Shown here piece by piece: positions 8,468-42,915 of a DNA stretch of 64,000 nucleotides. The stretch lies in the NCBI GenBank assembly GCA_031213475.1, contig JARUPZ010000017.1, forward strand, positions 6,898,167 to 6,962,166. The letters are read 5' to 3'. This DNA is from Nereocystis luetkeana (taxonomy: Eukaryota; Sar; Phaeophyceae; Laminariales; Laminariaceae). Position numbers and translations under genes: made by a program. The notes below the pieces were generated by a model, which had not been told where the DNA came from, did not search any database, and saw only the letters and a list, made by a program, of their open reading frames with translations. Numbering within the stretch: position 1 is the stretch's first letter; each line of letters begins with the position of its first letter.

Positions 8468-11400
8468 CTGTCGGGATTTCATCGCCCCACGAAGAATGTC
8501 TTGGACGACATAGTTGCACCATGGCACGTCATGACGAAAACACGAGGTGCACCATAGCGACTTCAAGCAGGTGCGTCGTGCACGCCTGACGTACCCAATA
8601 GTTTGAGCCACCGCGACGGGGTCCCTCTTGGTGTGTTTGAAAAGGGTGGAGTGTCGAGACATCTGCCCGTATGTTGCAGGTATCCCTCCACTGATTCACC
8701 ACAGCGTTGCGTTGTAGTCACTCAGGCCTGAACGAGAGTTGATACCGCCCAGTGAGTGTCTTACTCGGCGACTGCCCAAACACCACGAACGGCGACAAGG
8801 CAACGAAGCATGAATGACTACGTGTGTGACAATGGGTACGCATAAAAAATGGTGAACGCCAGGTTTTCTATGCCCTGCCATCGGTCTGCCTTCGACACGA
8901 GCTTTTGGATACCGTACACCACTCAGGGTATATAATAAAGGGGTTACACAAACAAGGGTCGAGTTTTTTCAAGCACGTTGCGGGCATACAGATCGGTTCG
9001 ACAACGCTGGCACATTTAATTTGTAGACCACTTTCTTCAACGACCTCAAACTGAGATATTGGAAATAAAGATATTGGCAAGGGTGCTTTACCCGCCGGCA
9101 TGGAAACTGTAGGAACGACGGCCGCCGCTAGAATCTCACCGCAAGTGTAGCCAGCCGTTCCACTTTGGCAGGTAAGTCCTTCGTCGCAAAAGACCGCCTC
9201 TGCTGGAGTACACTCTGCGCGGTACACGGTTGAGAGAAGGAGCGGCCTTGTTAGTCGTTGGCGGGGTTTGCCAAAACATCGAGATAAGCGACGCGTACAG
9301 CGATAATACGCATATGGTGCCAACACATCGCTGCCCAGGGGTACAAACGGTTTGACCGATATCGGCGTATTGTTCTGCAGCCATCACGCCTTTCTGCAAG
9401 AGTTTCAACTTTACTTCACGAAAGGCGGTAGTCGAACGTTAGCCTCGCCGCACGTGCCATCCCTGGCATCTTCGGAGTCGAGGAAGACGAACGGCACAGT
9501 GCTGCTCATAACGATGCAACAGGGACGGGGTGGGGGCGGGGTGTGGTTGTGAACATTAAAAGGAGTATTGCTGTTACTTACCGCCACGTGTGGGTGTCAA
9601 AATCTTTGTGCTCTGCACATAATGTTCCACGCATACTATCTACAGCGTGCGCGATAGATCCTATAAGCGCTGGGGCATACCAGAGCGCATTACGCTTCGA
9701 CATTCAAACAAGACCTGGGGCGACCTCAAGCAAAGAACCACCTATTTTCGCAGAGTTTAACGTGTGTAGCTGCTGCGTATCTTGACCCGCCGTGCTGGAT
9801 CAAGCATCCTCGAACAAGATGCAGCTACTCGAGCACTACACACCGAAACGGCCTTGGGCGTGGTCGTGTGGTGCTTACAACTCCTGCACTTACTTGGGAG
9901 GGAGGCACTGTAGCTCTGGGTTATCCTCAATTTCCCTACATGCGAATGCCTCAGACGCGCACGAGGACCAAGGGGGAAGGGCGCACGACTTTAGCAACAT
10001 GGCAGGCATGGTATACACAGTAGTTGCCGCACATTTAGAGGTCGTTGTTCAACAGACGACGTAATTATGCAAATAGACGTTGAGAGGCAAGAGGTATCGA
10101 TCCTTTAACGCAAGGTGCTAAGAACACGGAGTACCCGGCCCACGAATGCCTGCATTAGTTTTCGTTAGTGTTGGGCGTTCCACACGCAGCAGAGCATTGG
10201 AACCCGTGACTTACAGTCTCGAGAGGTTCACCAGGGGAGAGAAGAGGCCAGCAGGCAAGGTGGTCAAGCCGCATCCCATAAGGACCCTGATCATCACGAC
10301 CAGCGGCAACGTAATTGAAGACGGAGGGGCAGTCGTTCCTAAAAATCTGAAAACTAGAAAAAGCCGCCATGACGTCTACTATATTTAGTACACGTCGATA
10401 GAGTCTAGGAGCATGCATTTCTTTTCGAAGTTGGTACGAGCCTTAGTTGCTCGACAGCAACAGGTTTGTGGTCGAAGCTCGACCGCAACAAGGGAGGCAA
10501 TGGTCACATGGTAAAACAAAGCGCGTGAACTCGTGAAGCAGGTGGCGAAGAAAGCTCGACAGCGGCAGGAGACAGATAGTCACTCGTGCAGTAATTCGTG
10601 GAGCGATTTGAACGCGAGGCAAGCACTACCGTAGCACTGGTGCAAAGAGCAGCCGTAAGGCCGAACACGAGAAGCGTGCCACGGCAGCCGTGACCGTGTC
10701 ATTTCCCGGTGTTTATTTCCTGAGGATCTATACACATGTCAGTTAAACACTTCCTTGGGGGTTGTGTGTGCGGAAACACTATTTCTGGCTCAAAATGGGA
10801 GATGGCTGAAGGACGAGCTGCGCGGACTCTCGATTGGGGGGTTCTGAAGTCGTTTAGGTATTTATCATCAGAACCGACTTTATGGTTTTTTCAAGGTTGA
10901 GCGTCTGATCCCTATTTCGGGTCTCAACCGAACCCGTGCCGAAAGAAGTTGACCATTCCAGCTGGTTGGTTGCTAAGAATAACGATGGGTCTTGGTGAAG
11001 TTGGATCAGATTGTTTTCATTCGTTGTGCCGATCACCCGTCAGCCTCTTTTATTTTTCGCTGAAAAAAGGGGCTGTATGATCCGGATCTAAAATGCGATT
11101 CATTTTCCTGACATAAAGCGTGCCCGCTTTACCCGACGAGCAATCCCATGGCCTAGGTTAATATCGACAACTATTCCCCGATCGTACCAGGTACGATGCC
11201 GGGTACTTATTCAATTAAAAAGGCCGATTAGTTAGACACAGTTTCGACTTACACATGCCCCCCCTATTGTAGGAGCCATCACGAAAAACAGGCGACTTGT
11301 AAAATGCTGAATAACTCACAGTACTTCCAGGTTCGCGAGTTCTGCGAACACATCTTCGGGGAGTTCCACATCGTTGAAGTCCAGGTTCCTGATCAATTAA

Positions 11401-14400
11401 AGCGGGGGTGGTGCTCAGAGGAACCTCAACTTGCGTCAAGCAATGGTGCTTTACTTCAGCGCGAGCAACCATGGTAGTATGAAGAGCCGAACGTCTGGTT
11501 TTGGCCCAGTCCTAGCACAGCATGTATATCGTTGCAAACGTGCCCCGCTGCAAATGCCATCACCAGCGTTCCTGGTTCCGTGTTGTAGGTAGCTAGGTGA
11601 ACGGCTTGTGCCTATCGTTTGCATGGTCAACAACTCGGTGTAAAGCTTCATCTATGGCCGCCTCTAGTGCCGGAAACCGCTTCCACATCTCGCCTGCGCA
11701 CCTACGACCGAATTCACGGATACCTTGCCAGATCCCGGCGCAACGACGGGCAATACATCTTACAAAGCGATGGGTCTCCCGAAATAAAAAAGGCCAATGC
11801 ACATCTCCAACTTCAAACACAGCGGGGTACGTAATAGGCTATTAGATGCGACGCGTGCTGCGATGAAGGTAGCACGTTTTGGCTAAGATATTGTCTAGAT
11901 GACGGTGGCTCCTTAGCCCAAGAGTCGTCGGAATTCCATTCTTCATTTGGCAAATAATTGTCTTCGTATACCTAGGTCATGACAACATTCATCAACTATT
12001 GCACTCTGATTACTCTTGGAGTCAGATTATGTGTGACATACTAATAGTAGAACAGCTCCCCAAGCGGAGAGCCTAGGATACGAAGTAGTGTACCTCTTCT
12101 GTAGAATGCATCATGTTTTCTTTGACTACCACAGCAGAGCGGCACATGTTGTGGATGCTTTATTTACTGAGGGCACCTCTAAAACCAGTGTGAGGCAGGT
12201 GTTTTTTAGCACGTTCATAGTGTTTGCGCAGCGCGACGTGCAGGGGGCTGAAGCCTTCGTAGCTGGCATGCTCAGCCTTTGTCAAACTCGCGTGCAGATA
12301 GTCAAGACAGCCTCCAATCCAGGACTGGGGCCACGGAAATGCCGATGGAACTCACAGTACGCGAAGCTCCGTCAGCCCCGACAGCCATGGTTCTACGATC
12401 GTCAGACTATTGTCCGTGAGCTCCCTATCATGGCGCACGACGCGAACAGACGACAAGATTGATCAAACTTTAGCAGAATTGGCTTGACAAGAGTATACAC
12501 GGGGACGGTTGAGATTGTCAGTCGACCCGAGGTTTGGCTTCGGTCGGTTTTCTCCGGCTGACAGTACTATTAACAGCAATTTCCCCCGACACACGAACGC
12601 ACACACGGTCCAGTACGTCACATGAACTTTGCACTGTACCCTAAAAGGTATCATGTACCCGGTGTCTTTTAACGAACGAGTCCAGCATTACACAACCTAA
12701 CCGAGTCAAACTGGGCTGTTGTTCACTGATGCATCCATCAAAGAATGAAAGCAAGAACGCCTCTACCATGCGTCCGATAGGCCTCGCGAGAACCTCATGG
12801 TGGCGCGAAACCGTCGGTGTGATTGTGCCCGTGCCTCGATCATGTAAGGCATCCCTTGCGTTTACCTTCAACAGTGTGCAACGCTAAACACAACGTATAG
12901 TGAAGGCGTTGATGCAGCAAGTCATATGTGTGCAAGACACAACGTTCAGTCAAGGCGACTATTCGACATGTGATGTGTGCTCCCGATATAACTCACAATG
13001 TGTCCAACGCCGAGAGATCCGAAAACACAATATCGGGCAAGCTTCTGAGGCCATTGAAAATTAAGCTCCTGGCAACCGATGGCATCGAACCATCGCACAA
13101 AAAATGGTGAAAACGAAATGGGCATAATATCAGCAGCGTCGGGGCATCGATCGAAAGGAAAGTTGACCACGGGTGTTTCAACTGGGTATGCTGGAGGACC
13201 GTGTAGAAAGAATCGATCTCAGGCGTGCATGGCGGCACCGGCGACGAGTTTCGGTGCACACTAGAAGGATCGTCGTAATTTCCCACTTTTTGTACACGCC
13301 GGACGAAGTTGTAGATAAACCACTGAGAGACACCGGACACGTCCGCATCCTAACTAGGGCCTACTTGGGGTGATACAGTATAAAACTGCCCGAATAAGGC
13401 GGAGAATGGTGGCGCTGTCCACCCGATCCAGCGCCGGTGTTTGAGCGATCAGATGCAGAAGTTATCAATCACAATGGACCGGGTTGGTGTCGTGACCCAA
13501 ACTACAGCAGGTTGATGCCTGAAGCGCAACGGGTGCGGGACCGGTCGGGTCCACCCGATAGTTGTGATCACGAAACGAGCAAAACAGCCGCTGCGGCATC
13601 TAACAACAGTCAACACTGCGGAAGTCGCACCTAAATTGTACCAACGGCGTAATCAACGTGGCAAAAGACGGTTTTGCCAGAGCTTTCAAAGCATCATGCT
13701 AAGGTCTTCTGAACCGTGCTCTTATGGCGGGCATCATGTTATCCCCAACGACGTCATAGGAGTTGGAATGTTATCATTTTCAGCACCAGTTTACCTCCAT
13801 CGACATGGTATCGCAAGCGGATGTTATGATAGTTGGCGCTCTTGCTCACACGTGCCTTGTATCGATAGCGCATGGCCTTCACAGAGACAGAGGGCATAGA
13901 CAGTTCATAGCGCAGAAATACTCACAGATTCTCCAGCTTTGTCAGGCCGGCGAACAATCCTTCGGGTATGGTCCGAATCCCAGATTCGCTGAGGCCTCTG
14001 GACCGACGACGAATTACCACACAAGGGGACAGCGACCCAACCAAGAACGTCAGTAAGGTGGCACTGGAACGGTCGGTACTCGCGGTAGTGAGAAACGGCG
14101 CACTCGCTACGCGCAGCAGTCGCATCACTAGCGAGATGTCGTTATTGTTGAGGACGCACACCACGGTAGAGGTTCACTGCTTGTCTTCTGAGCCGGCCTT
14201 CTCACACGAGAAGCTCTACAACCTCACCCAAGATCTGATTTGGGGGAGGAAAGTGAAGGGGCTACTATACACGGTGATGAGCAGTCCGATGGCCCGATAA
14301 GAACCATACAACGAAGCAGGCCTGACAACACAACGTTGGCGTTCCGACAGTTTCGAGTGAAGACGCCCCCGTCTTTTGGGGAAACAATTATGCCGACAAG

Positions 14401-17400
14401 GACTATTACGGGGGGGCATAGTTAACAGGACCAAATATTGTTGGTAAAAATGGTTAAATATATAGTTTTTTATGTACATCATAGGTCCTGTTAACTAGGG
14501 TCCCCCGTAAGAGTACCTCTGTCGTGTCGAGCGACGTCAAACGAGAACGAAATATGCAACAAAAACACGAGCGACCACGAGCATTTTCTCCATAGAAGAG
14601 TATTCGCGTTGTATGCGAAACGGCCAGCGACAGGAACCGTGCTACGGAAAACGGTCCCGTTTGGCTCCAAATGTTGTGACTGATATGGCACCCCTCGTCT
14701 ACGGCTTATGGCACTACGCAACATATTGGTAGTCCCATTCCGTGGCAAAAACAACCCCACCAGAAAAAAAAACAGGATTTTTGGATGAGGGATAGAGCTC
14801 CTCGTGGTGTGCGAGCCTTTCGTGAATGTTTCCCTCGTAAATGTTCGGTGGGTCTCTACCGTAGCACTCACAAACGCGTGAGCTCCGTGAGGCCGTCGAA
14901 CAACCCCACCAGGCTGGTCGTATCCGTCAGATCGTTTCTGTCGAGAAACCTGAAGAGGTTTGGGCGAAAACAAGTGGACAAAGATAATTCATGCATTAGC
15001 GACCATCAAGGCACGTCCGACGCTATAGGTCCTCGATTCGCTGGACACGAAGCTACCACTCAGGGAAAGCTAGCTCCGGGGGCGGTTACTCCCGTTGACC
15101 TTTGATATGGCACGTCGAAACACCAAGTGTTCGCGCCGTTTTTTCCCTACGTGGAAGGCGCCAGGGTGCGAGTAGACATTCCTGGCGCGTGCTCCGGGAA
15201 CGTTGGCACCCTATTTTGTGTGAGGCGGCTCCCTTGGTTACAGTATAATATAGGAACCCTTTACCTGTCGTCCCAAACGGCTTTGATAAAAGCTAAAACC
15301 GCACCGCTATGAACATTCCCCATAGCCTGGGTTCCCGTGAATGATAGGGAATGGTGGGTCAGAAAGTGCTCACTCCGTCGTAGCACGCCTCTCCTGTGAT
15401 AATCGACGACCTACGACCCGTTCTACGATAGAGATAGAATATTTTTGCTATTTTGTTTCTGAAAGACGCGGTTGCTTGACCCCAAGTCGTCGGAATGTCA
15501 ATCTCGATTTCGAAAAGAAAACATTTTTTTTTTTGTAGACTTGGGCCATTGGACTATTCGCCGCGATGCATTTCGATTTTTGCTGATATCAGTTTTCGGG
15601 TGAGGTATGGAGCTTCTCTAGTGAGGAGCCTCAGAACATTTAGGGTGAACCTCTATCGTAGAACGCCTCCTACGGAGATTCCAAACCCTGTGCGAGATAC
15701 CAATCAAGCTATGTACCGGGGGCGGGGGGTATTCGATAGGAGAGACATGCTCGATTTCATGCATGGCCGTAGTCGTATGACCATAGACCCTCGCAACCCT
15801 GCAGTGCCGGGACTGAGCATGTCGGGTTTTCACCGACCGGGCAGACATTGCTTGCCCCTAGCGCGAAGCGCCGTGAAATGTCCGGTGAGTCGCACGAAGG
15901 GTGAGCTTCATCATATGCTGCTTGTGAGGCGGACTTGCATATGGATGACAGCTTTAGTGAATTAATTTAATCTCCGGCGTAGCCACTTCCAGAGACAGCA
16001 ATGGGAGTACCATGAAACTGCCTCCTGGGTGCCTTATCTTCAACACTACGTGATACGATAAATCCCCCTTGTTCGGGGTATAGGTTGTTTACCTCACACA
16101 AATAATCTAACTCGACGACCAGCTGTGGACAACTGCCAAACCAAATGTTGTCTAGCTCACGTAGTGAGCGGCATATTTTACAATGTCGTTGCCAACTGAC
16201 GCCAACCCAAGGGGGGAGGGGGGGGGGTAGCCACCGACGAATGCTACAGGAGGGGTGACCTTATACCATTATGAGGCTCTTGAGCAGTTGTGCGTCATAC
16301 CCAACCCAACCGAACACGATCTCATGACAAACTAAGCAACACAAATGGGTTTTCGCAAGCCTCCAGGCACTCTTCAACCCCAACCGCGTACTAACTGCAT
16401 CGCAGAGCTTCCTAGACACACCGCCTCTACCCTCGATCATGAACGAACTCACAGCTCTTGCAGTAGGGGAGTCCCCGAGAAGAGACACACGGGCAGGGTC
16501 TCGGGCGTCAACTCGTTGTTGAAGAGCCGCCTGGTCACAACCGGGGCGAACGTCGACCAACGGGCGAGGGTTCGCTAGTCTTGCACACGGGGATCGTCGC
16601 GATACCAAGGTGTTGCAGGGGGGCGGGCAGGCGGGCGATGACTCTCCGCCTAGCTTAGCGTGCTTTGTCTATTGCTAGGGGTGTGAGCATGCCTGAATAT
16701 AGCCCGGGACGGGTGAGACAATAGGGGGTAGTGCCTATTGGTTCTATGGGGCTCTTTTATTTGTGGGGAGCGTCATGCCTCACCCACATGACTGTTTTGT
16801 TTTAGCGAACGTATCACCCAAACCGAGCTCACCCCGATGAAAGACTCCACGGCATAAGTGCTTGCGAGCAATACCGTGCGAAATGCTATCGGATATCGGG
16901 TAGTTCCTGGGTTGAGAGGCTCCGTCAGTCACAAACATTTCGGCCAGAATCTGTTTCCCCGCGTCCGGGGACGACATCCAGCGTTCAAAATCCCAAAGCC
17001 CCGTGAACATGCAGCGACACTCAGTAGCGACCCCGGTGAGAACTACTTATGCGCTCGCTGGGTTTTCTGAAGCGCTGTTGCTGCCATTATCTGTTCACCA
17101 ACATCATCACCGCTTACTGCGCTGCACTATGTGGCACTATGGTACCCAGCAGTGGGTATTCCCCGTGCTGCTTTCTCGATCCCTGTGCGCCTTCAACAGT
17201 GGCAAGATGATGCCATGTGTAGCCTGTGGAAGCGTCTATCAATAGAGAACCGACGAGCAGGTGTTTCAAACGGCTCGCGGTCAGAGCCCACCGCGCGGCG
17301 AGCACGTTGTCTTCGCCTCTGCCTCAGGCTTACATCGTCGTGAGGCTAGCAAGGTCGGAAAAGGGCTCCCTCGGGCAAGCTGACCAGATCGTTGACGGAG

Positions 17401-20400
17401 ATGTCCCTGAACGAAAGCGACATCGTGAACACGAACACAAGCATTAACACGAGTGGTGCCAAAACGCGCGTGGTCACAAAACGGCCATGTACAACGGAAC
17501 CGACGACACCACCCTGGCTCTGACTTGTGCGCTACAACGAATGAGCTCGTCCAATTCGCGGTTGTGGTGACTTGCGCGACTATAGCTCTCTTAGTACATC
17601 ATTAATGTTTGAACATTATAACATCAATATATTGGCCAGAGGCTACTGCTACTACTAAAGACGCACGAACGACAGTGTTCCAGGTTTGTTTGCGATACCG
17701 TTGTGATGAATGGCGCGATTGAAGTCCGAGGTTTTAGGAACGCGCTGTTGGAACAGGTGTACTGCAAGTGAACGCCGCAGCCGAATGCAAGTCTAATCAC
17801 TCACAAGGTCTCGAGCTTCGCGAGGCCATCGAACAATCCTTCTGGCACGGTCACCAGGCTGCTGCGGTGGAGGTCCCTGGGCGAGAAATCGTCCTGACAA
17901 CCCAGGACGAAACAGCGGCAAATGTCAAGCAGGCGCCCTCGTATACTTCAGTAGGAAGGTCAACATATGGCAGGCCACGAGTGAACAAGATCCCCATCGA
18001 GGCGAGCAGGTCTCGACGGTGCATGACTTTTAGTAACGCGGACTACGAGTTTTCGTGATTGTGGTGAAAGGCCACTGTACCAGGAAGCCAGACACCAAAA
18101 GCAAGCGGTCGCCAAGATTTGCTTTGTCTCCACACAAGCAGCCGTCTCCAGGATACAGGTTTACTAAGAGCTACCTTCGTATGACGGTGGTACAACGCGT
18201 AAGCCAGCCTCGTTGGAAGAGCTGAGCTGCACGATTACCGAGCAGGTTTACGATACAAACGATTGCAAGCCATGTCCGACATCGTATGTGCCACAACGAT
18301 TAAATTCTGGCATGCTTCGCTGTACCGGCGACGCGCGGCGCTCTAAAGCAACACTTGCGTCCTGGCCGTATATTTGATCTCGTGCCAGCAGGTACAATCT
18401 CCGGTGGCGTGCTCTATTTTTTGTGTGCACTCACAAGAACGTCAGCTCGGACAGGCCAGCAAATGTCCCTTCGGCGTACGACGATACGCCGAGGCTGTCG
18501 TCGAGAAGTCTGAATACAGACAAACCCAGTAGGGCGACGGCGGAACACGGAAATCACGCGCGCACGATGGCAGCCCGACGTGATTGCAGGGACGAGAAGA
18601 ATTGTGTACACCGGTTAGGTTGAGCGAGTGTTCAGTCTAGCCCTTGGAGTGTCCACGGGTCCGATTGCAACCTCCCCCTTAGGCCTGCCGTATATTGTAT
18701 CAGTATTGGCCAAGGCAAATAGAGACAAACGTGTACAGGTAGGTTGGGTGCATGGACAGTGTACACGTGGGATTTTTCACAGGGCTCATTGCAACCGCCC
18801 CGTAGGCATAAACAGATCGCGTCACGGATGCTAGCCTGGGCCCGGGGTGACGCTGAACGCTTGCGTTGGCGAAATGACGAGGCATCCCCATCGATGAAGT
18901 ACCCAGCCCACGGTGGGGAATGGGATCAGAGAGAGGAGCGAAGCGAGACGAACTCCCAAGCGGGGTCTACGGTTTAAACTACGCGAGCAAAACATCTTAC
19001 TTAGCGAGACTGAGAGGTAGAGACTTACGAATACGTTTAGGGTCGTAGGGGTCAAAGAAATAGGTGGGGGGTCGGGTTAGCTGAGTGCTATCCACATGGG
19101 CCCCTCCGCACTACCATGGTAGTTTTCAGGCCAACAGGAACACAACAAGGACGCTTGTAAAACAGGAGACCATCCGTAGTACCTGAGCGGCCGTCAGATA
19201 GGTCCAACGTCTTGCAGGGCACAAGCACAAATAAACGTGGAACCGCCCTGCTGAAGGACTCAACCCTTCCATATTGCACGTCTATCTAGGGCTCCTATCG
19301 CCGGTCGACCGTGAGTGTCCTTCTCGTCAAGCCTCCCAGATTTCCATGGGGGCAGCATAAAACACCCTTTACGGTAGATACGAAAAAAAACGCACTTTTT
19401 AGCTGTAGGTTACTCGGACCGTTGCGATACATTTCTTGTACCCGCCACCCTCTGGTACGGTATAGCCTATATTGCTGCAGGCTATTTCGAATTTCACATC
19501 AGGGGCAGTATTCACAGCTCACAGCGCGTCCGTTGCACATGCTACAACCCGGACATGGTTGAACGCCGGCCCCACCGTCTGCAGTGGATTGCAAAGGCTG
19601 CGTTTGGGTACCTTCCGGTGAGAAGCTGGTCCTTTACCACAGGATGTTTGGGTCCCTGCAGAATATTTTGCGGTGCATATTCTACGCGGCTCAGGGACGT
19701 AGTGCGACGCCGTGCGAGTCACTCTCAGTCTTTCGATGTTGGCTCTCCCGAACTCCTCGAAGCATGACGGCAAAAACGGTACGTCGTCGTCCGTTAGGTC
19801 GCAACCGGTGAAGGCCCTGCAAACGGGGGGCAGGTGGCGTGCACGCGGGAACCTTGCCACAGCTCGCCTAGATGGCCGTTTACTCGTGACATACCCTGTC
19901 GATGGCTTTGTTTCGCTACGTGTATCCTTTTAGTGCAAGAAGCCCGTCGCAATTTTTTTCTCAAAGACCGTACCTCGAAGTATGTAATCACGGACTGGGC
20001 CGTCATTCGAAACCTACACACGTCATCCGGAAAATATTCATTGCAACAGCTGGTGCACTTCTGAACCTTGCTCGCCGTCGGGGTGGTGGGTACTCGTCCC
20101 CAGGGTCATCGGGCCGAAAACTTGTGTCTGCAATCATAAGCAACTAACTGCGATACCGCAATATGCTACAGTAGCTCTCTGCAGTGGAAGCTTACTGACT
20201 GCTCGGACGTGCTGCACAACCCCACCATGAACGCCGGTACCATCGAAGTCGATGCCATGCAGCGTCAGGTGGCTCGAGGCCCCTGCGGCACCCTATAAAT
20301 GTCGCTGGCAAGGCGCATCGATGTGTCATTTTCTCGGGTTAACGCAGGACCCTCGTTTCGTTCCTTTGTGGTTTGGCCGTATAAGACCGTCTCGGCTCTT

Positions 20401-22278
20401 CAACGGGCTGAGCACGCAATTCACGACTGGTCCACCGTTGTGGTACATATGAACATGCTATTGCGCTGAGGCGTGTCATATCTCACATAGATAGTCGTAT
20501 CCCCCGAAAACGTGCATTTGAAGACGTCGCTGGTAGGATCCAGGCACGAGTTGCTGCTGCTGCTGCTGCCGACCACTGAGTGTTGAAATCCGGAAGTGGG
20601 GAATAAGCGTGGGATGGAATAGTGAGGGGTCTGTGACCTCGCACTGCACGTGGTTACTGCCTGTGCGGCTTTGGGATCGACGAACGGGGCTGAATTGGTT
20701 GTTACTGTGATGTTGTGGTTAAACACGACGAGGTGTTCTACGATAGAGGTTCACATTAAACTTTCTGAGGCTCCTCACTCAAGGAGCTCCTTACCTCTTC
20801 CGAAAACTGACTTCAGCAAAAATCAAAATGCATCGCGGCGAATAATCCCCCATGGCCCGAGTCTACAAAAGTTTTTTTTTTTTTTTCGAATATCAAGATT
20901 ATTTGGCATTCCGACGATTTGGGCTCAAGGAACCCCAGGTGCTGACTGCTGCCACGGCTGCTTTTATCACCACTGCGGATGATCGACCTCTGGACATTCG
21001 AATACTTGGGGCAGGTAAGGCGTTACGGACGGACGCATAGAGGAGGGCAGGAGGTTCTGCAACCAATGTGCGACGCTAGTCGACTCAGTAGCGTAAGCAT
21101 GATACAGTACCGTACCGTTCTCAGCATAATTTCTTGAAAAAGCACTGGTTTGATCGGCGGGTTCCTATTACTGTGTACAAGCACCGTGTAGTGGAAATGT
21201 ATTGAACGACCCACAGAATTTGTTTTTGTGCGGAGCGCGGGATGCATATTCAGCTACATGGTGCCGGCATTTAGTGCGGAAATTTCCCAAGCAACTCTTT
21301 CGGGGGAACATGGTTGATGAGACCAAATAGTGTTATTAATATTGCGGGGGACCATAGTTAATAGGACCAAATATTGAAAGTAGAAATTGTTAAATATATA
21401 CCAGGTAGATTTTATGTATACCACAGGTCCTATTAACTATGGTCCCCCGTAATAGTAGGAATAGCGAAATATATGGTTTTATATGTGTACCGTAGGTCCA
21501 ATATGATATGGTCCCCGGCAAATACTGTACGTACAGACAGCAGTGCTACGGAACCTATTTGTTTCGTCATCGAAAGCTTGTGTGTGTCGGATTGTTTCCA
21601 CATAAACGTTCATGTGGGTGGGCCAAAGGTTAGAGTTAGGTTTAGGCTTGGGTTTGGCGGCATACTGGTACCGTTCGGTGTGTTTCTGTGTTATCCACTA
21701 GTAGGGCGTCCTATTATCTCCACTTACCATCTGACAGCGTGCGGGGCTAGTTCCGTTCATACCATCCGCACACAATATAAAATGGAAACTGCTGTGCGGT
21801 GTGCAGAACCAAGCGGGTGGCAATATCATCCTACTAGACTATTGCCGGAACCACGCGCTTCCCCACGCAATAACTCATGTATTCCATACTGTTCGTCCGC
21901 GCCAGGTATGAGGTATTGGCAGGCCTCGTATCTAGGCGGTAAATTTATACCAGGTACACCGTAACACCGCGCTATCATACGGATTCGCGCCATCAAGGCG
22001 CACTTGCTTCGTGGAATGCGACAACGACGCACCTGGTACCTCTCCGCCTCGCCGATTTTGATATTCGTCACTCGGGTCGCGGAGTCTAGCGTGTAGAGCG
22101 AGCGAGTGCCGTCCTGCCTGAACCTGAGCCTGTAAGGCCTGTTGCGGCCGTCGTCGTATCGGACCACCGTGAACGTGATGCCGCCCTCCGTCACCGACAA
22201 CGTCCCCCGAGTCGCACTGGAAACGCCAGCGTTCGCCAGCATCACTCCCAGCAGGGAGACTCGCCCGGTACTGATCAT
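8274..22278 (-). CDS. LRR receptor-like gene, exon-per-repeat (model)
   Basis: Composite model, 5' to 3' on the minus strand: signal-peptide exon (22278); Cys-rich exons (about 20567, 20060, 19816); LRR cassettes at 18435, 17805, 17334 (frameshifted), 16453, 16100 (irregular), 14872, 13926, 12997, 12356, 11320 and 10215; cap exon (9894); Cys-rich exons (9501, 9212); membrane exon (8467). LRR exons share phase 2 at both ends, so any one could be lost, gained or swapped without breaking frame. Introns run about 260-1150 bp and hold MITEs. Known background: one-LRR-per-exon shuffling has been described in brown-algal LRR-ROCO genes. No ROCO GTPase domain is seen here; signal peptide and membrane segment suggest a surface receptor instead. 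Joins across the N-terminal Cys exons and beyond the membrane exon are unproven. The 17334 frameshift leaves open that the locus is a pseudogene. Confidence 0.55.
8868..9212 (-). CDS. Cys-rich extracellular exon of the LRR receptor-like gene
   Basis: After an acceptor (CGCAGAG| at 9213) the frame reads CTPAEAVFCDEGLTCQSGT and stays open for about 115 codons to a stop at 8868. Many cysteines are present, including CMPATC and DPCLC. An internal donor (TTGCG|GTGAGA, exon end 9140) would give a short 73-nt version ending GYTCG in phase 1. That matches the phase-1 start of the membrane exon. Either ending is possible. The Cys spacing suggests a secreted, disulfide-bonded module next to the membrane. 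Confidence 0.45.
   Translation of the reverse strand, partial: CTPAEAVFCDEGLTCQSGTAGYTCGEILAAAVVPTVSMPAGKAPLPISLFPISQFEVVEESGLQIKCASVVEPICMPATCLKKLDPCLCNPFIIYPEWCTVSKSSCRRQTDGRA
9420..9501 (-). CDS. Exon following the LRR cap
   Basis: An 82-nt exon between GAGCAG| and TTTC|GTGAAG. Its first base completes the split Asn codon left by the cap exon at 9894. The exon encodes TVPFVFLDSEDARDGTCGEA and a short remainder, ending in phase 0, which fits the CAGAG| acceptor of the next Cys exon. Confidence 0.45.
9894..9935 (-). CDS. LRR C-terminal cap exon
   Basis: A 42-nt exon (ATGTAG| ... CCCAA|GTAAGTG) in phase 2/2 encodes EIEDNPELQCLPP. The NPxLxCxP form is the classical end-cap of extracellular LRR arrays. 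It stands directly downstream of the last full LRR exon at 10215. Confidence 0.65.
10215..10286 (-). CDS. LRR cassette exon (72 nt)
   Basis: GATCAG| ... AGACT|GTAAGTC. Exactly 24 codons in phase 2/2, reading VLMGCGLTTLPAGLFSPLVN and then LSR, with the closing Leu split by the intron. Confidence 0.75.
11320..11388 (-). CDS. LRR cassette exon (69 nt)
   Basis: TGATCAG| ... GTACT|GTGAGTT. 23 codons in phase 2/2: NLDFNDVELPEDVFAELANL plus EV. Canonical LRR spacing with one residue fewer than the 24-aa form. Confidence 0.75.
12160..12324 (-). other. Ankyrin-like fragment
   Basis: After GGCCCCAG| the frame reads SWIGGCLDYLHASL, then YEGFSPLHVALRKHYERA, and ends at a stop at 12160. G-F-S-P-L-H-x-A-L is the ankyrin-repeat helix signature. 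It begins only 31 nt beyond the donor of the LRR exon at 12356, too close for a normal intron. It is more likely an unrelated fragment or decayed exon than part of the LRR protein. Confidence 0.35.
12356..12424 (-). CDS. LRR cassette exon (69 nt)
   Basis: ATGATAG| ... GTACT|GTGAGTT. 23 codons in phase 2/2: ELTDNSLTIVEPWLSGLTEL plus RV. The L..N.L core and GL..L end are conserved. Confidence 0.7.
12997..13068 (-). CDS. LRR cassette exon (72 nt)
   Basis: TTGCCAG| ... ACATT|GTGAGTT. 24 codons in phase 2/2: SLIFNGLRSLPDIVFSDLSA plus LDT. Confidence 0.75.
13926..13997 (-). CDS. LRR cassette exon (72 nt)
   Basis: GGTCCAG| ... GAATCT|GTGAGTA. 24 codons in phase 2/2: GLSESGIRTIPEGLFAGLTK plus LEN. 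A textbook IPxGLFxGLxxL repeat. A short LRR-like phrase upstream (LNNNDISLV, about 14130) lacks clear splice sites. Confidence 0.8.
14406..14510. mobile_element. MITE-A copy in an LRR intron
   Basis: TTACGGGGGGGCATAG at the left and GGTCCCCCGTAA at the right frame the usual AT-rich core. It lies in the intron between the cassettes at 13926 and 14872. Confidence 0.95.
14872..14949 (-). CDS. LRR cassette exon (78 nt)
   Basis: CTCTTCAG| ... CGTTT|GTGAGTG. 26 codons in phase 2/2: FLDRNDLTDTTSLVGLFDGL plus TELTR. Two extra residues in the loop before GLFDGL; the same length as the cassette at 16453. Confidence 0.8.
15415..15669. mobile_element. MITE-B copy 1
   Basis: Terminal inverted repeats GACCCGTTCTACGATAGAG and CTCTATCGTAGAACGCCTC, flanked by a perfect 4-bp duplication CTAC (15411-15414 and 15670-15673). 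It is in inverted orientation relative to the copies at 31054, 49539 and 60829. No coding capacity. Confidence 0.9.
15717..15955 (+). repeat. G-run-linked conserved motif (family D), long copy
   Basis: A G-rich run is followed by ATGCATGGCCGTAGTCGTAT, ACCATAGACCCTCGC and GCAGTGCCGGGAC. Further downstream come GAGTCGCA and TTGTGAGGCGGACTT. The same order occurs at 48290-48625. Shorter copies are at 35740, 48785 and 52683. Confidence 0.75.
16100..16195 (-). CDS. LRR-like exon (96 nt)
   Basis: A pyrimidine-rich acceptor (TTGGCGTCAG|) and a weaker donor (TATTT|GTGTGA) bound 32 codons in phase 2/2: WQRHCKICRSLRELDNIWFG, then SCPQLVVELDY. It resembles an irregular, Cys-containing LRR. A second donor (GTGTGAG|GTAAAC) would end it in phase 0. 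Without either donor the frame stays open about 40 codons further. Confidence 0.45.
16453..16530 (-). CDS. LRR cassette exon (78 nt)
   Basis: GTGACCAG| ... GAGCT|GTGAGTT. 26 codons in phase 2/2: RLFNNELTPETLPVCLFSGT plus PLLQE. Confidence 0.7.
16780..17010 (-). other. Coding-like segment, unassigned
   Basis: The minus frame reads MFTGLWDFERWMSSPDAGKQ and continues through HLCRGVFHRG to a donor-like GTGAGC, then a stop at 16780. MFTGLWDFERW could be the tail of a decayed LRR, but no clear acceptor is present. Confidence 0.3.
17334..17406 (-). pseudogene. Frameshifted LRR cassette exon (73 nt)
   Basis: Splice sites are intact (CGTTCAG| ... GACGAT|GTAAGCC) and the first part reads DISVNDLVSLPEGALF. 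The length is 73 nt instead of 72, and the frame then meets TAG. Dropping one base near CTTTTCC restores the DLASL ending. Inclusion of this exon would break any mRNA. It is either a dead cassette, skipped, or a sequencing or assembly error. Confidence 0.7.
17805..17876 (-). CDS. LRR cassette exon (72 nt)
   Basis: TCGCCCAG| ... ACCTT|GTGAGTG. 24 codons in phase 2/2: DLHRSSLVTVPEGLFDGLAK plus LET. Confidence 0.8.
18435..18509 (-). CDS. LRR cassette exon (75 nt)
   Basis: GTATTCAG| ... TTCTT|GTGAGTG. 25 codons in phase 2/2: LLDDSLGVSSYAEGTFAGLS plus ELTF. It is the most upstream well-formed cassette seen. Confidence 0.75.
19723..19816 (-). CDS. Candidate N-terminal LRR-like/Cys exon
   Basis: Acceptor GTTTGCAG| is followed by AFTGCDLTDDDVPFLPSCFE, then ANIERLR, and a possible donor (AGA|GTGACT). 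The spacing recalls ribonuclease-inhibitor-type LRRs with two cysteines. Start in phase 2, end in phase 0; the upstream join is not resolved. Confidence 0.4.
19974..20060 (-). CDS. Candidate N-terminal Cys-rich exon
   Basis: An 87-nt exon between GGTTCAG| and TTCGAG|GTACGG, phase 0/0, 29 codons starting KCTSCCNEYFPDDVCRF. CxxCC and a later Cys suggest a small disulfide module upstream of the LRRs. Confidence 0.4.
20487..20567 (-). CDS. Candidate N-terminal Cys-containing exon
   Basis: NSCLDPTSDVFKCTFSGDTT leads to a donor TAT|GTGAGA in phase 0. The acceptor lies inside a short CAG run (20551-20568) and cannot be placed exactly. It fits between the signal-peptide exon and the CxxCC exon. Confidence 0.35.
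20730..20940. mobile_element. MITE-B copy, right end missing
   Basis: Left terminus GAGGTGTTCTACGATAGAG and the body (GAAAACTGACTTCAGCAAAA, GCATCGCGGCGAATAATCCC) match other copies. The right inverted repeat is absent. Confidence 0.85.
21299..21521. mobile_element. Older MITE-A split by a younger MITE-A
   Basis: Left half CGGGGGAACATGG...ATAGTGTTATTAAT lies before the younger copy. Right half AGTAGGAATAGCG...GGTCCCCGGCAA lies after it. Together they make one diverged element. Confidence 0.8.
21342..21452. mobile_element. MITE-A copy nested in MITE-A
   Basis: TTGCGGGGGACCATAGTTAA ... CTATGGTCCCCCGTAA with intact palindromic arms, inserted in the core of the older copy. Confidence 0.95.
21622..21660. 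repeat. Degenerate telomere-like words
   Basis: GGTTAGAGTTAGGTTTAGGC and following TTGGGTTTGG resemble decayed TTTAGGG units. Short and possibly chance. Confidence 0.3.
22033..22278 (-). CDS. Signal-peptide exon of the LRR receptor-like gene
   Basis: ATG at 22278 opens MISTGRVSLLGVMLANAG, followed by VSSA. This is a typical secretory signal with cleavage expected after VSSA. About 60 further residues follow (for example GGITFTVVRYDD, IKIGEAERYQ) to a donor CAG|GTGCGT at 22032, phase 0. An alternative donor (GAGAG|GTACCA, exon end 22040) would give phase 2. A GTG at 22302 is in frame but is not a eukaryotic start. The downstream domain is not recognised. It is the only signal-peptide exon upstream of the LRR cassettes on this strand, hence the assignment. 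Confidence 0.5.
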
Positions 22279-22727
22279 CTTGATGACTCGCGGGGCTATC
22301 ACCTAGCCCTGTGGAAGGGCGCGGAAAACAAGATGTCTATTAATGGTAGAAGAAGCGCGCAACAAGGGTTTCGTGGCGCTAACTACTGCAGAGTATCGAG
22401 ACCTTTGCATGCACATCGGGGGGAGGGGGTGGGGGGGGGGGGCGGGGGGCAAAGGCGCGACAAATCAGAACAGCACATGCAATTCACACCGAAGTAAGTG
22501 AAGAGTAACGGGGGGCGAAACAAGTAAAGTGTGAGAACTACAAAGTACATACATGTATGTACAAGCCGACGTGAGGGGCGTGGGCCCAACTTCACCTCTG
22601 AATGAAAAAGACAGGACTATTCAATAGTCGCGATATTATATACCTGGTACCTGAAATGTTCGGTCATAAATGATGAGAATATGTGACCTCAGGCAATACT
22701 ACTACAGTAGTAGTAGCAGTATTAATA

Positions 22728-22832
22728 TTACGGGGGACCATAGTTAATAGGACCTGTGGTATACATAAAAACCTATATATTTAACCATTTCTACTAACAA
22801 TATTTGGTCCTATTAACTATGGTCCCCCGTAA
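22728..22832. mobile_element. MITE-A copy, near-intact
   Basis: 105 bp, arms TTACGGGGGACCATAG and CTATGGTCCCCCGTAA, flanked by TA on both sides. Confidence 0.97.
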
Positions 22833-23688
22833 TAGTGCATTACTGGTGCCGTATTCCTCATTGTACCAAAACCACTACGGTAGTATTGGTCGTGAAAGAG
22901 AGTGGGAATATTCGAGCCGCCTATCTATGCCAAGCATGAAAATAAACAGTGTAGTAGGATAAAGTATGGAACAGGAGAGAAAAAGAGCCATCCCACAGTG
23001 GGGGTGCACCAGAAGTTCCTGGGCCCCTCACAGTAGGAGCTCAATATCTCACCCGATACAATACTTGGGGAAAAATCGTTCGTGCCACACCGACCGGCAC
23101 ATGTATGCGCGCTAGTCCTGAAGCGAACATACGAGCAATTTGTTCATGCGAACGTGCTCGGAAAGGGACTTTCTTTTTCAACTGACTGCGAATCCGACGC
23201 CGTAAGAATTGGCCTTACCCGGGAAAATCGGGCCCTCACCCCCGCCCCGACCCTCTTGAACGGTCTGTACGCTGTGGGGAAGGTGTCCGGGAACAATCAG
23301 GCCCAAAAAAAAAAAAAAAAAAATCCGAAAAGAATAATCGACCGTGATAATAATTACTACTACTACTACTGCTCCCTGTACGGTACGTTTTTTTTTGTCG
23401 CTCTTTCCATTCAAAGTACCATACAAATATTTACGGGTCCAACATACACTACTGCTGCACGTACTCCGAACTGAAAGATTCCGATGCGTTCGAGTTAAAT
23501 CCGTGATTTTGGAAAGGGAAGGCAAACGTGCGGGGCCCTTCACACTATTACATAAATAAGAAAGAAGCACAATTTGCTGGGAGGCGGGCTGGTTTAGTAC
23601 TGTGTAAGCCCCCTGTATGCCGTACACAAATTGTCATCGCTGTACCTCACATCATCACCGTGCAGTACGCGGCAGGTGAGATGATAAT

Positions 23689-29060: not shown

Positions 29061-31050
29061 GCAAACGAAGTGACACTGAAGGAACCCGGCGAGAGTATGC
29101 CGTGTTCGTGTCCGAAGCAGAACACCTTGTAACAGCCAACTCCGGGAACACACTAAAACCATAAACTGGGTGGGTTGGTGTCGAATTGAGGCACGCCAGA
29201 CGCTAGGTGCTAGGCCAGAGGTGAATACACGATGTGACTGAGAAACCAACGATAAAAGCGCAGACGTGAGGTCATGAACGCCGCAGCAGACACCAACAGG
29301 ACAATTTCAGCCACCCGCTAAGGCTGATCGAGGGGGGCAGAGGAACATTCTCGCGAAAGTTTAGGGATCTATGGGACGCATCGGAATTTCTTAAATCACA
29401 TCGCGAGTCGGTCCTCCCCTGTCTGATGACGCTGCAGGCACCTCTATCCGTGTATGGCGTCCCGTGAAATAGTTCAAAATAACGGGTAAAAGGCCAACCC
29501 TCATCATTTCTGGATCGTCCACAAACCAGACGATGTAAGGGTAGGTTGGAGAGGTGTCCGGCGAGGCGTGACGGGCGATTGTTCCCAACCAACAGAGGCC
29601 TGTTTTTGTGCAGGCCATGTACCTAGAGTGCTCCCTGACTGGAAGAGCTTGGACGTGGTGAAGACACAGAGTGCACGGGACGACGTCGTATCACAGAGCG
29701 CGAGAAACACCACCCCGGGGACCGCGATATTTTCTGGTCTACAGCACCGATGCGCATCTGGCGGGTATAGGCGGTTGGCTTTGGCAGTTTGGCGATGGTA
29801 TGACCGAGCAGTCGACCGGAGGGTGTAAAGTTGGGTGTGTTACAGATGCATCTCACGTTCCCAGGAGGGGCTGATAAATCGTGCATGGCTACAGCAAACA
29901 CCATCACGACCGCAGACAAGCTGGTGCCTCGTGGTATGCTGAACAACAAGGCGTTTTGGTAGCGGTGTGATGTCTTCGAGGGCAGGGGGGGGGGGAGATG
30001 TTGCGGACGAGTTGGGTGCGTACTCGGTGATATCGACCGGTCGATGTGTAGGCACGATGTAGAAATCGTCAACATCTCGTCAAGGCTTGCATTGAGCAAC
30101 CCAACCGCCGCGGTTGGGGTCCCGTCCCTGCATGTTGGAGGGAGAGAAGGTTTGGAGGAGCCTGTCACGAAAAGGCCAGCCATCGGCGGCGTGAGGGGCC
30201 GGTCCCTGGCCCACGATGATAACATACACCCGCTTGAAGGAGGACTCGGTGTTGAGTACGGTGGCCTCAATGTCGTTCTTGGCCCCACCGGCGATAGAAA
30301 CCCACAGGGTACTGGCGGAGGGTGTCTATTATGTGAGCGACGCGACGGTGAAAACTCGAGACGGTGAAGGTGTGATGTCCACGACCGATGCAGGATGAGC
30401 CCTATTGACGCCCGGCTGCCAGGTCGCATACAGCTAGTTGGTCGCGGTCCAAGCCTTCATGCCCACCATTGTTAGGAAGGCCGACGACGGTGAGGGAGGG
30501 GCAAGGAAGGCGGCCCTTGCGTACTTCGCTGGGGAGAATCCCAGTGACGGTGCTGACGGGGCTGTTATAGGCCCTCTCGATGCGCGGAAGCTAAACGACC
30601 ACCCCTATATTGTCGCATCCACGCACTAACGTAAGATAGCGAGGATATTCGTCGGCGGGTGGAGGCAAGGCCATGTCGAAATGTCGTGATGAGATCGTAG
30701 GTGGTCGGTGAACGAGACGAACACTACCGCCGTCGGTAGTTTGAAGTTGGCCGTTTATCGCGAGGGGAGGACTCACGAAGCAAAGCGGACGGCGTGACGA
30801 GGTGATCTAATGTAAACGAGCGTCGGTAGTCGGTCGTGGAGGGTAGCCCGGTGAAAGGAGTCGAGTGGTGTGATGAAAACAAAGGAGTTCGGCGCGTTGT
30901 TCGTGCGCCCAGTCCGAATAGGCGTGGTGTATCGGCGACGGAACGGAGGTCACGGTCGACATCGGTTCCAACGACGGGTTCCGCCAGGTTAAGCGTCGGT
31001 TGTGGTGGAGTCGCAGTAGACAATACTGGCGGTGGTGGTCCTGATACGGA
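29061..31050. other. Long open frames without recognised genes
   Basis: Both strands are unusually open (a 268-codon minus frame at 29623-30429 and several plus frames). The composition is GC-rich and repetitive (GTCGG, GGAGG words). A plus-frame phrase at about 29740-29800 (STDAHLAGIGGWLWQF) faintly resembles the RNase H motif of retroelements. I do not call a gene. Confidence 0.35.

Positions 31051-34132: not shown

Positions 34133-42915
<8,783 letters not shown>

Follow-up and report, generated by a model that had tools for sequence, protein, structure and literature searches.

A likely degraded member of a clustered brown-algal family of putatively secreted leucine-rich-repeat proteins with fixed cassette order

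The array of single-repeat exons found in a 64,000-nucleotide stretch of the Nereocystis luetkeana genome (the window; C17:6898167-6962166, within a 465-Mb assembly) likely belongs to a gene copy that has recently decayed, one of a brown-algal family that expanded in a cluster and encodes leucine-rich-repeat (LRR) proteins, probably secreted to the apoplast or cell wall. Such a family, which would owe its diversity to the duplication of genes and of exon blocks, would be a variant on an already known LRR exon logic. It is a second family in which the free shuffling of LRR exons in brown algae becomes testable, and its answer so far, in the six genes read, is a fixed order with local block expansion. 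The clustered genes also provide candidates for extracellular recognition proteins in brown algae, about whose surface immunity little is known.

Results

A single-repeat exon array in the window

The minus strand of the window holds, from position 18509 to 10215, ten exons of one LRR apiece with phase-2 borders (cassettes); nine of them, 69-78 nt long, keep the frame and the tenth, of 73 nt, is frameshifted (Table 1). The original prediction had counted eleven such exons; ten of these stand, and the remaining one, of 96 nt, gives way to a 42-nt LRR C-cap exon on comparison with the paralogues A, B, F and H. The predicted start and end of the LRR exons in phase 2 hold: the cassettes are bordered by AG and GT, with the first base closing a codon and the last two starting the next, and the phase is backed by homology among genes. 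A cassette scan of positions 9801-18600 (minus) found 9, whereas 100 dinucleotide shuffles gave 0.06 on average and never more than 1; across the entire window, the count was 10 on the minus strand and 0 on the plus strand. Multiple-of-three length and phase 2 were conditions of the scan, so that the 83/83 cassettes with lengths that are multiples of three are not independent evidence. Unlike this count, the near-constant length of each cassette type is independent evidence for cassette exons: h is 69 nt long in 12 instances, i 69 nt in 13, and d and e 78 nt in six each, while a and j range from 72 to 75 nt. Among all 83 cassettes, 72 nt is the length of 43, 69 nt of 25, 78 nt of 12 and 75 nt of 3. 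The profile search against Pfam LRR families that had been proposed for the conceptual protein was run with a paralogue array, a mixture of cassettes from two genes, and matched LRR_8 (PF13855) at 1.2e-45. Rfam and tRNA searches of the window gave no matches.

Table 1. Parts of the window gene in transcriptional order (window coordinates)
Feature	Position	Strand	Length (nt)	Remarks
E1, start codon, likely signal peptide, first part of N-terminal module	22033..22278	-		ends in phase 0
E3, short Cys exon	20487..20575	-	89	ends in phase 0 in the relatives' frame
E4, LRR N-cap exon bearing Cys	19727..19816	-		GAGAGT at donor position
Cassette a, one LRR	18435..18509	-	75	
Cassette b, one LRR	17805..17876	-	72	
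Cassette c, frameshifted	17334..17406	-	73	intact 72-nt c in A, B, F, H and P
Cassette d, one LRR	16453..16530	-	78	
Cassette e, one LRR	14872..14949	-	78	
Cassette f, one LRR	13926..13997	-	72	
Cassette g, one LRR	12997..13068	-	72	
Cassette h, one LRR	12356..12424	-	69	
Cassette i, one LRR	11320..11388	-	69	
Cassette j, one LRR	10215..10286	-	72	
LRR C-cap exon	9894..9935	-	42	phase 2 to 2; homologous exon in A, B, F and H
c1 exon	9449..9501	-		ends in phase 1; donor GC in window, GT in A, B and H
c2, Cys-rich exon	9140..9214	-		phase 1 to 1

A family of ten genes on one contig

Exon searches recovered ten genes of this type on C17, an 11-Mb contig, and the cassettes were read in six of them: W (the window gene), A, B, F, H and P. 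The gene plan consists of a likely signal-peptide exon, an exon with eight cysteines (E2), two short Cys exons, the LRR cassettes, a Cys cap and a Cys-rich exon. The original prediction had joined a signal-peptide exon and Cys-rich exons to the array, and both were recovered: E1 and its hydrophobic N-terminus, judged by eye to be a likely signal peptide, are conserved in A, B, F and H, and E4 and the cap, c1 and c2 exons are conserved together with their cysteines. B and F have a common 16-cassette layout and alignable flanking DNA, and A and P share the core followed by h-i-k-i-(k-i)-j. The contigs C1545, C995 and C673, each matching the first probe at 100%, were considered as paralogues and rejected, since their identity of 99.86-99.97% over 17.3-19.6 kb makes them redundant copies of the window locus.

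The N-terminal module has no Pfam, NCBIfam or PDB match, and E1 alone gave two Pfam matches, both far under the cut-off; joined, cap, c1 and c2 of gene A had no Pfam match either. Across the genome, E1 has 66 matches at E<=1, counting redundant contigs. A single-protein search of viral_contigs, sensitive to close relatives only, confirmed no viral relative of the module. The secreted LRR family was not described in the literature titles and abstract openings searched; Zambounis et al. 2012 reportedly annotated all Ectocarpus LRR genes, so an earlier description may exist.

An intact protein of the family would start with a signal peptide, followed by an N-terminal module made of about 60 residues and the eight-Cys exon. 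Two short Cys exons would then cap the solenoid of 10 to 17 LRRs, each encoded by one exon, and a Cys cap with a Cys-rich tail would complete the protein. The LRRs would make an extracellular ligand-binding arc, both secretion and binding being predicted, with a putative role in the recognition of microbes or cell-wall molecules, or in immunity. All borders from E4 to the cap are phase 2 and fall at the same repeat position, within the concave β-strand, so that block duplication of cassettes can lengthen the arc without a frameshift. This seems to have been exploited mainly for blocks, namely a pair of b and c close to the start and h/i/j/k blocks that follow the a-j core, while the order is otherwise fixed. 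The genes would have diverged through duplication of whole genes and of blocks, together with faster change at residues of the concave face.

Such faster change is observed: concave dN is 1.9 to 4.5 times that of the rest in 14/15 gene pairs, the excess being absent (1.1) in the closest pair, B-F. The dN/dS of the core cassettes is 0.21-0.46 in the 15 gene pairs, which share history and from which cassette pairs of unequal length were dropped. Concave dN/dS never exceeded 1.0 in the six gene pairs examined, and positive selection is thus not demonstrated.

Cassette order and alternative readings

The cassettes do not look like freely shuffled units: their order is fixed, and the genes differ mainly by block duplication. 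One order, a-b-c-d-e-f-g-h-i-j, is kept in all six C17 genes read. Across the six genes, 390/415 best counterparts belong to the same cassette type (label shuffles: mean 42, maximum 79), as do 160/174 in the first four genes alone. The type labels were assigned by similarity, and a test of in-order runs, which is independent of the labels, gave longest runs of 9/9 for W to B and for W to F, 10/10 for H to A and 15/16 for B to F. The run exceeds all 2000 shuffles in 28/30 ordered gene pairs; the weaker ones are W to P (7/9, reached by 11/2000 shuffles) and A to W (8/17, reached by 12). With other tie-breaking in the four-gene run, W to A (7), A to W (8) and F to A (10) merely equalled the shuffle maximum. 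The comparison of cassette order across paralogues, set beforehand as a refutation test of the predicted shuffling, thus came out against it. A shuffling cassette receptor of the kind proposed for LRR-ROCO genes, secreted or membrane-bound, with exons swapped, recombined or alternatively spliced, is therefore very unlikely. It would fit the uniform single-LRR phase-2 exons, which resemble those of LRR-ROCO genes (PMC11378527), as well as the range in cassette number (10, 10, 15, 16, 16 and 17 in the six genes). This variation arises through the b-c and h/i/j/k blocks, and against shuffling, only 3/83 cassettes have their nearest cassette within their own gene (8/58 in four genes), the other 80 being no nearer to it. 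Limited exchange is possible, as B_c2 scores higher with P_c (94) than with B_c (78), and copies of j match one another at different positions. The redundant contigs, which may stem from one individual, show no cassette differences over the covered array.

The membrane exon of the original prediction, at about 8467-8300, was not borne out, as the homologous DNA in A, B and F has no common open frame. A membrane receptor of the plant receptor-like-protein type would have the same ectodomain, with a transmembrane segment and a short tail in 3′ exons. In W, A and B, the c2 exon closes in phase 1 and is followed by a good GT donor, so coding sequence may continue, and some B-F windows 3′ of c2 reach 0.75-0.78 identity, on par with the cap exon (0.77); a further exon and a membrane anchor could thus exist. 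Although the frame at 8467-8300 is hydrophobic, the stretch shows no conservation as coding sequence in A, B or F, and no exon was recognised downstream of c2, which makes such a receptor unlikely, and a secreted protein remains the preferred reading. As to the state of the window copy, it is probably a pseudogene, judging from its lesions. E2, present in the nine other C17 genes, was not found there and left no convincing remnant; c is frameshifted, its 73-nt form being identical in C995 and C673, the two redundant contigs that cover it and may derive from the same reads; the c1 donor is GC; and the E4 donor, GTGAGT in A, B, F, H and P, is lost, a lesion seen in one contig, as the three redundant contigs end before E4. 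It is rather improbable that the gene is instead functional and divergent, having lost E2, skipping c and using unusual splice sites. Apart from c, its nine cassettes are open and have strong splice sites, its dN/dS (0.28-0.46) is similar to that of its relatives, and the phase-2 borders would permit c to be skipped. E3 ends in phase 2 in A, B and H versus phase 0 in the window copy when read in the relatives' frame, and when E1 is joined to E3 in the other, open frame, the phase at E4 is correct. Against this stand the E4, c1 and c lesions and the fact that this gene is the sole one of the ten without E2.

Relation to known LRR systems

The original observation that no ROCO domain is visible at the locus is borne out: none of the 47 ROC (PF08477) matches listed for the genome at E<=0.001 falls on C17; COR (PF16095) had no match at E<=0.1, and introns could hide one. 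One ROC match was tried as an LRR-ROCO gene and rejected: L035, extending 7.8 kb upstream, has no LRR exon, and the match beside it is probably a small GTPase. From this one match and the 7.8 kb upstream of it, no LRR-ROCO gene was demonstrated in the genome.

The exon logic is nevertheless shared with brown-algal LRR-ROCO genes, as had been predicted: PMC11378527 describes 72-bp phase-2 exons of one LRR each. LRR-ROCO genes likewise form a multigene family, and faster change at concave sites is common to both. The C17 family differs in its signal-peptide-like start, its Cys caps, an order fixed by cassette type and lengths of 69, 72, 75 and 78 nt, besides lacking a ROC match on C17. A broader proposal, possible but short of probable, is that brown algae have a second recognition system, independent of ROCO and diversified in the germline. 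It would consist of secreted LRR proteins with an ordered cassette grammar (core a-j plus an expandable h/i/j/k block), joined to a so far undescribed Cys module at the N-terminus, which this genome would also put on other secreted protein types. An LRR-exon system of thousands of genes likewise has tandem LRR exons of constant length, extreme phase-2 bias and expansion by duplication, but its exons are of 90 bp and widespread shuffling is reported, whereas the C17 genes keep their 10-17 cassettes in one order. Plant LRR receptor-like kinases and proteins share the extracellular LRRs, predicted here, and phase-2 introns are common in Brassica LRR-RLKs (PMC4654520); in contrast, no transmembrane segment was recognised in the C17 family.

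Typical-type LRRs are common to the C17 family and the extracellular animal LRR proteins (LGR4, LRRTM, acid-labile subunit, TLR, VLR), and LGR/SLIT-type genes have single-LRR phase-2 exons. The C17 proteins differ from these in an N-terminal module without database match, and no membrane or signalling part was found in them. The best solved relatives of the C17 LRRs are LRRTM, the acid-labile subunit and LGR4, followed by TLR and VLR; cytosolic SHOC-2 and designed LRR proteins match too, more weakly than the top ones.

Exon structure of the window gene

The predicted array of single leucine-rich repeat (LRR) exons on the minus strand of the window was borne out: ten are present, nine in frame and one (c) frameshifted, and a cassette scan found nine in the array versus a maximum of one (mean 0.06) in 100 shuffles. 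Upstream of these cassettes lie E1, with the start codon, E3, a short Cys exon, and E4, a Cys-bearing LRR N-cap exon, and downstream c1 and c2. Cysteines occur in all of these except E1, in agreement with the Cys-rich exons proposed, and E1 carries what is, judged by eye, likely the expected signal peptide. The 96-nt exon of the original prediction is, from comparison with paralogues, most simply the C-cap exon read from another acceptor, and across the supposed membrane exon no reading frame is kept in genes A, B and F. A block of ~100 bp 3′ of c2 (window 8553-8447; A 29932-30032; B 29847-29945) is conserved in the window gene (W) as well as in A, B and F; it has no open frame shared among the four and is perhaps 3′ UTR or regulatory.

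Exons of the window gene (window coordinates) and related genes (C17 coordinates)
Feature	Position	Strand	Description
E1	22278-22033	-	upstream of array
Cassette a	18509-18435	-	single-LRR exon
Cassette b	17876-17805	-	single-LRR exon
Cassette c	17406-17334	-	single-LRR exon, 73 nt, frameshifted
Cassette d	16530-16453	-	single-LRR exon
Cassette e	14949-14872	-	single-LRR exon
Cassette f	13997-13926	-	single-LRR exon
Cassette g	13068-12997	-	single-LRR exon
Cassette h	12424-12356	-	single-LRR exon
Cassette i	11388-11320	-	single-LRR exon
Cassette j	10286-10215	-	single-LRR exon
Cap	9935-9894	-	42 nt, 3′ of cassette j
Gene W		-	a-j (c frameshifted), 10 cassettes
Gene H	6570418	+	a-j, 10 cassettes
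Gene P	6686079	+	a-j + h i k i j, 15 cassettes
Gene A	6837952	+	a-j + h i k i k i j, 17 cassettes
Gene B	6887204	-	a b c b c d-j + h h i j, 16 cassettes
Gene F	6740030	+	a b c b c d-j + h h i j, 16 cassettes

The window also holds copies (e.g., 14402-14514 and 22726-22834) of a palindromic, MITE-like element that is ~110 bp long and whose inverted arms measure 29-31 nt (ACGGGGGACCATAGTTAATAGGACC). The arms give 19 matches at ≤3 mismatches and none in 100 shuffles; one copy lies in the intron that separates cassette e from cassette f. Long trinucleotide-repeat tracts at 1450-2574 and ~36000-36250 yield spurious single-residue frames.

Relatives in the genome and state of the window copy

The assembly comprises 465 Mb in 1987 contigs, and the window spans 6898167-6962166 of its contig JARUPZ010000017.1 (C17). 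Searching the assembly with E1 gave 66 matches at E ≤ 1, a count that takes in the redundant contigs, and with E2, an eight-Cys exon, 54 matches at E ≤ 0.001. Ten loci on C17 contain both E1 and E4, with c2 downstream in all ten and E2 in nine, the window gene being the sole exception. Cassettes were read in six of them (W, A, B, F, H and P); in P, E4 and the cassettes were read directly and E1, E2 and c2 were placed by search. E4 and c2 also match less strongly, side by side, on contigs C2, C13, C14, C16 and C28 (E up to 10), which suggests further genes, and in one C16 copy (L036) five 72-nt phase-2 LRR cassettes lie 3′ of an E4-like exon.

The best candidate for an E2 remnant at the window gene is an unconvincing 17-nt match (E 0.011). 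The E3 end extends 4 nt beyond that of A, B and H, the E4 donor position reads GAGAGT, the c1 donor is GC, and intact relatives are present. The 73-nt c is identical in two short contigs, C995 and C673; a third, C1545, does not cover it. All three match the start of the window, from its first base to 17.3-19.6 kb, with 99.86-99.97% identity, and were rejected as paralogues and taken as redundant copies of the locus. The window copy is a probable pseudogene; speaking against decay are the open frames of all cassettes other than c, an ordinary dN/dS, and the E1-E3 phase, which fits E4 when another open frame is used.

Cassette order and selection

The order tests used 83 in-frame cassettes from the six genes, nine of them from W. 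The best counterpart in another gene was of the same type in 390/415 comparisons (label shuffles: mean 42, maximum 79). Across these six paralogues the order is fixed by type, which does not support the free shuffling originally suggested. The label-free in-order run exceeded all 2000 shuffles in 28/30 ordered gene pairs, the exceptions being W to P, reached by 11 of 2000 shuffles, and A to W, reached by 12. A four-gene run with other tie-breaking gave the same type in 160/174 best counterparts, the in-order runs of W to A, A to W and F to A being just level with their shuffle maximum. The nearest cassette lay in the same gene for only 3/83, and length is nearly set by type (h and i, 69 nt; d and e, 78 nt), a and j each varying by one codon. 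Because of these order, distance and length results, cassettes hold positional identity, with block number distinguishing the genes.

Across core cassettes, dN/dS was 0.21-0.46 (15 gene pairs). At the concave positions (residues first, third, fourth and last two, fixed from the LRR register prior to counting), dN was 1.9-4.5 times that elsewhere in 14/15 gene pairs and 1.1 times in B-F, each comparison drawing on seven to ten equal-length cassette pairs, unequal ones excluded, and the gene pairs not being independent. Since concave dN/dS exceeded 1.0 in none of the six gene pairs computed, the faster change would be relaxed or diversifying, short of proven positive selection.

Nature of the family

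The protein is probably secreted. The solved chains closest to its LRRs are animal extracellular LRR proteins, cytosolic SHOC-2 matching more weakly. Fold, clustering and concave change point to a putative role in the recognition of microbial or wall molecules. LRR-ROCO genes, in the available text of PMC11378527, share 72-bp phase-2 exons with the C17 family but carry ROC, for which C17 had no match among those listed. The available text on Tetrahymena (PMC6564038) describes 90-bp phase-2 LRR exons, a like exon logic in another lineage.

EsV_1_7_cys is a family expanded in brown algae; the assembly gave 150 scored matches of 1710 candidates, and 14 control genomes none (the eight named controls being prokaryotes). 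On these counts a brown-algal source is likely.

The N-terminal module had no Pfam, NCBIfam or PDB match. E1 plus the eight-Cys exon also starts genes in which no LRR was seen in the short stretches read (L027, L028, L029, L030). Ten copies, mostly 17.5-20.7 kb apart, lie at C25:3083199-3265679, and many at C3:0.05-1.66 Mb, one followed by PTPEP-type repeats, again with no LRR in the short stretches read. In the short stretch C8:11178300-11186299 (L030), the module is followed farther on by an EGF-like piece and a zincin-like HEMGHVIGIG motif.
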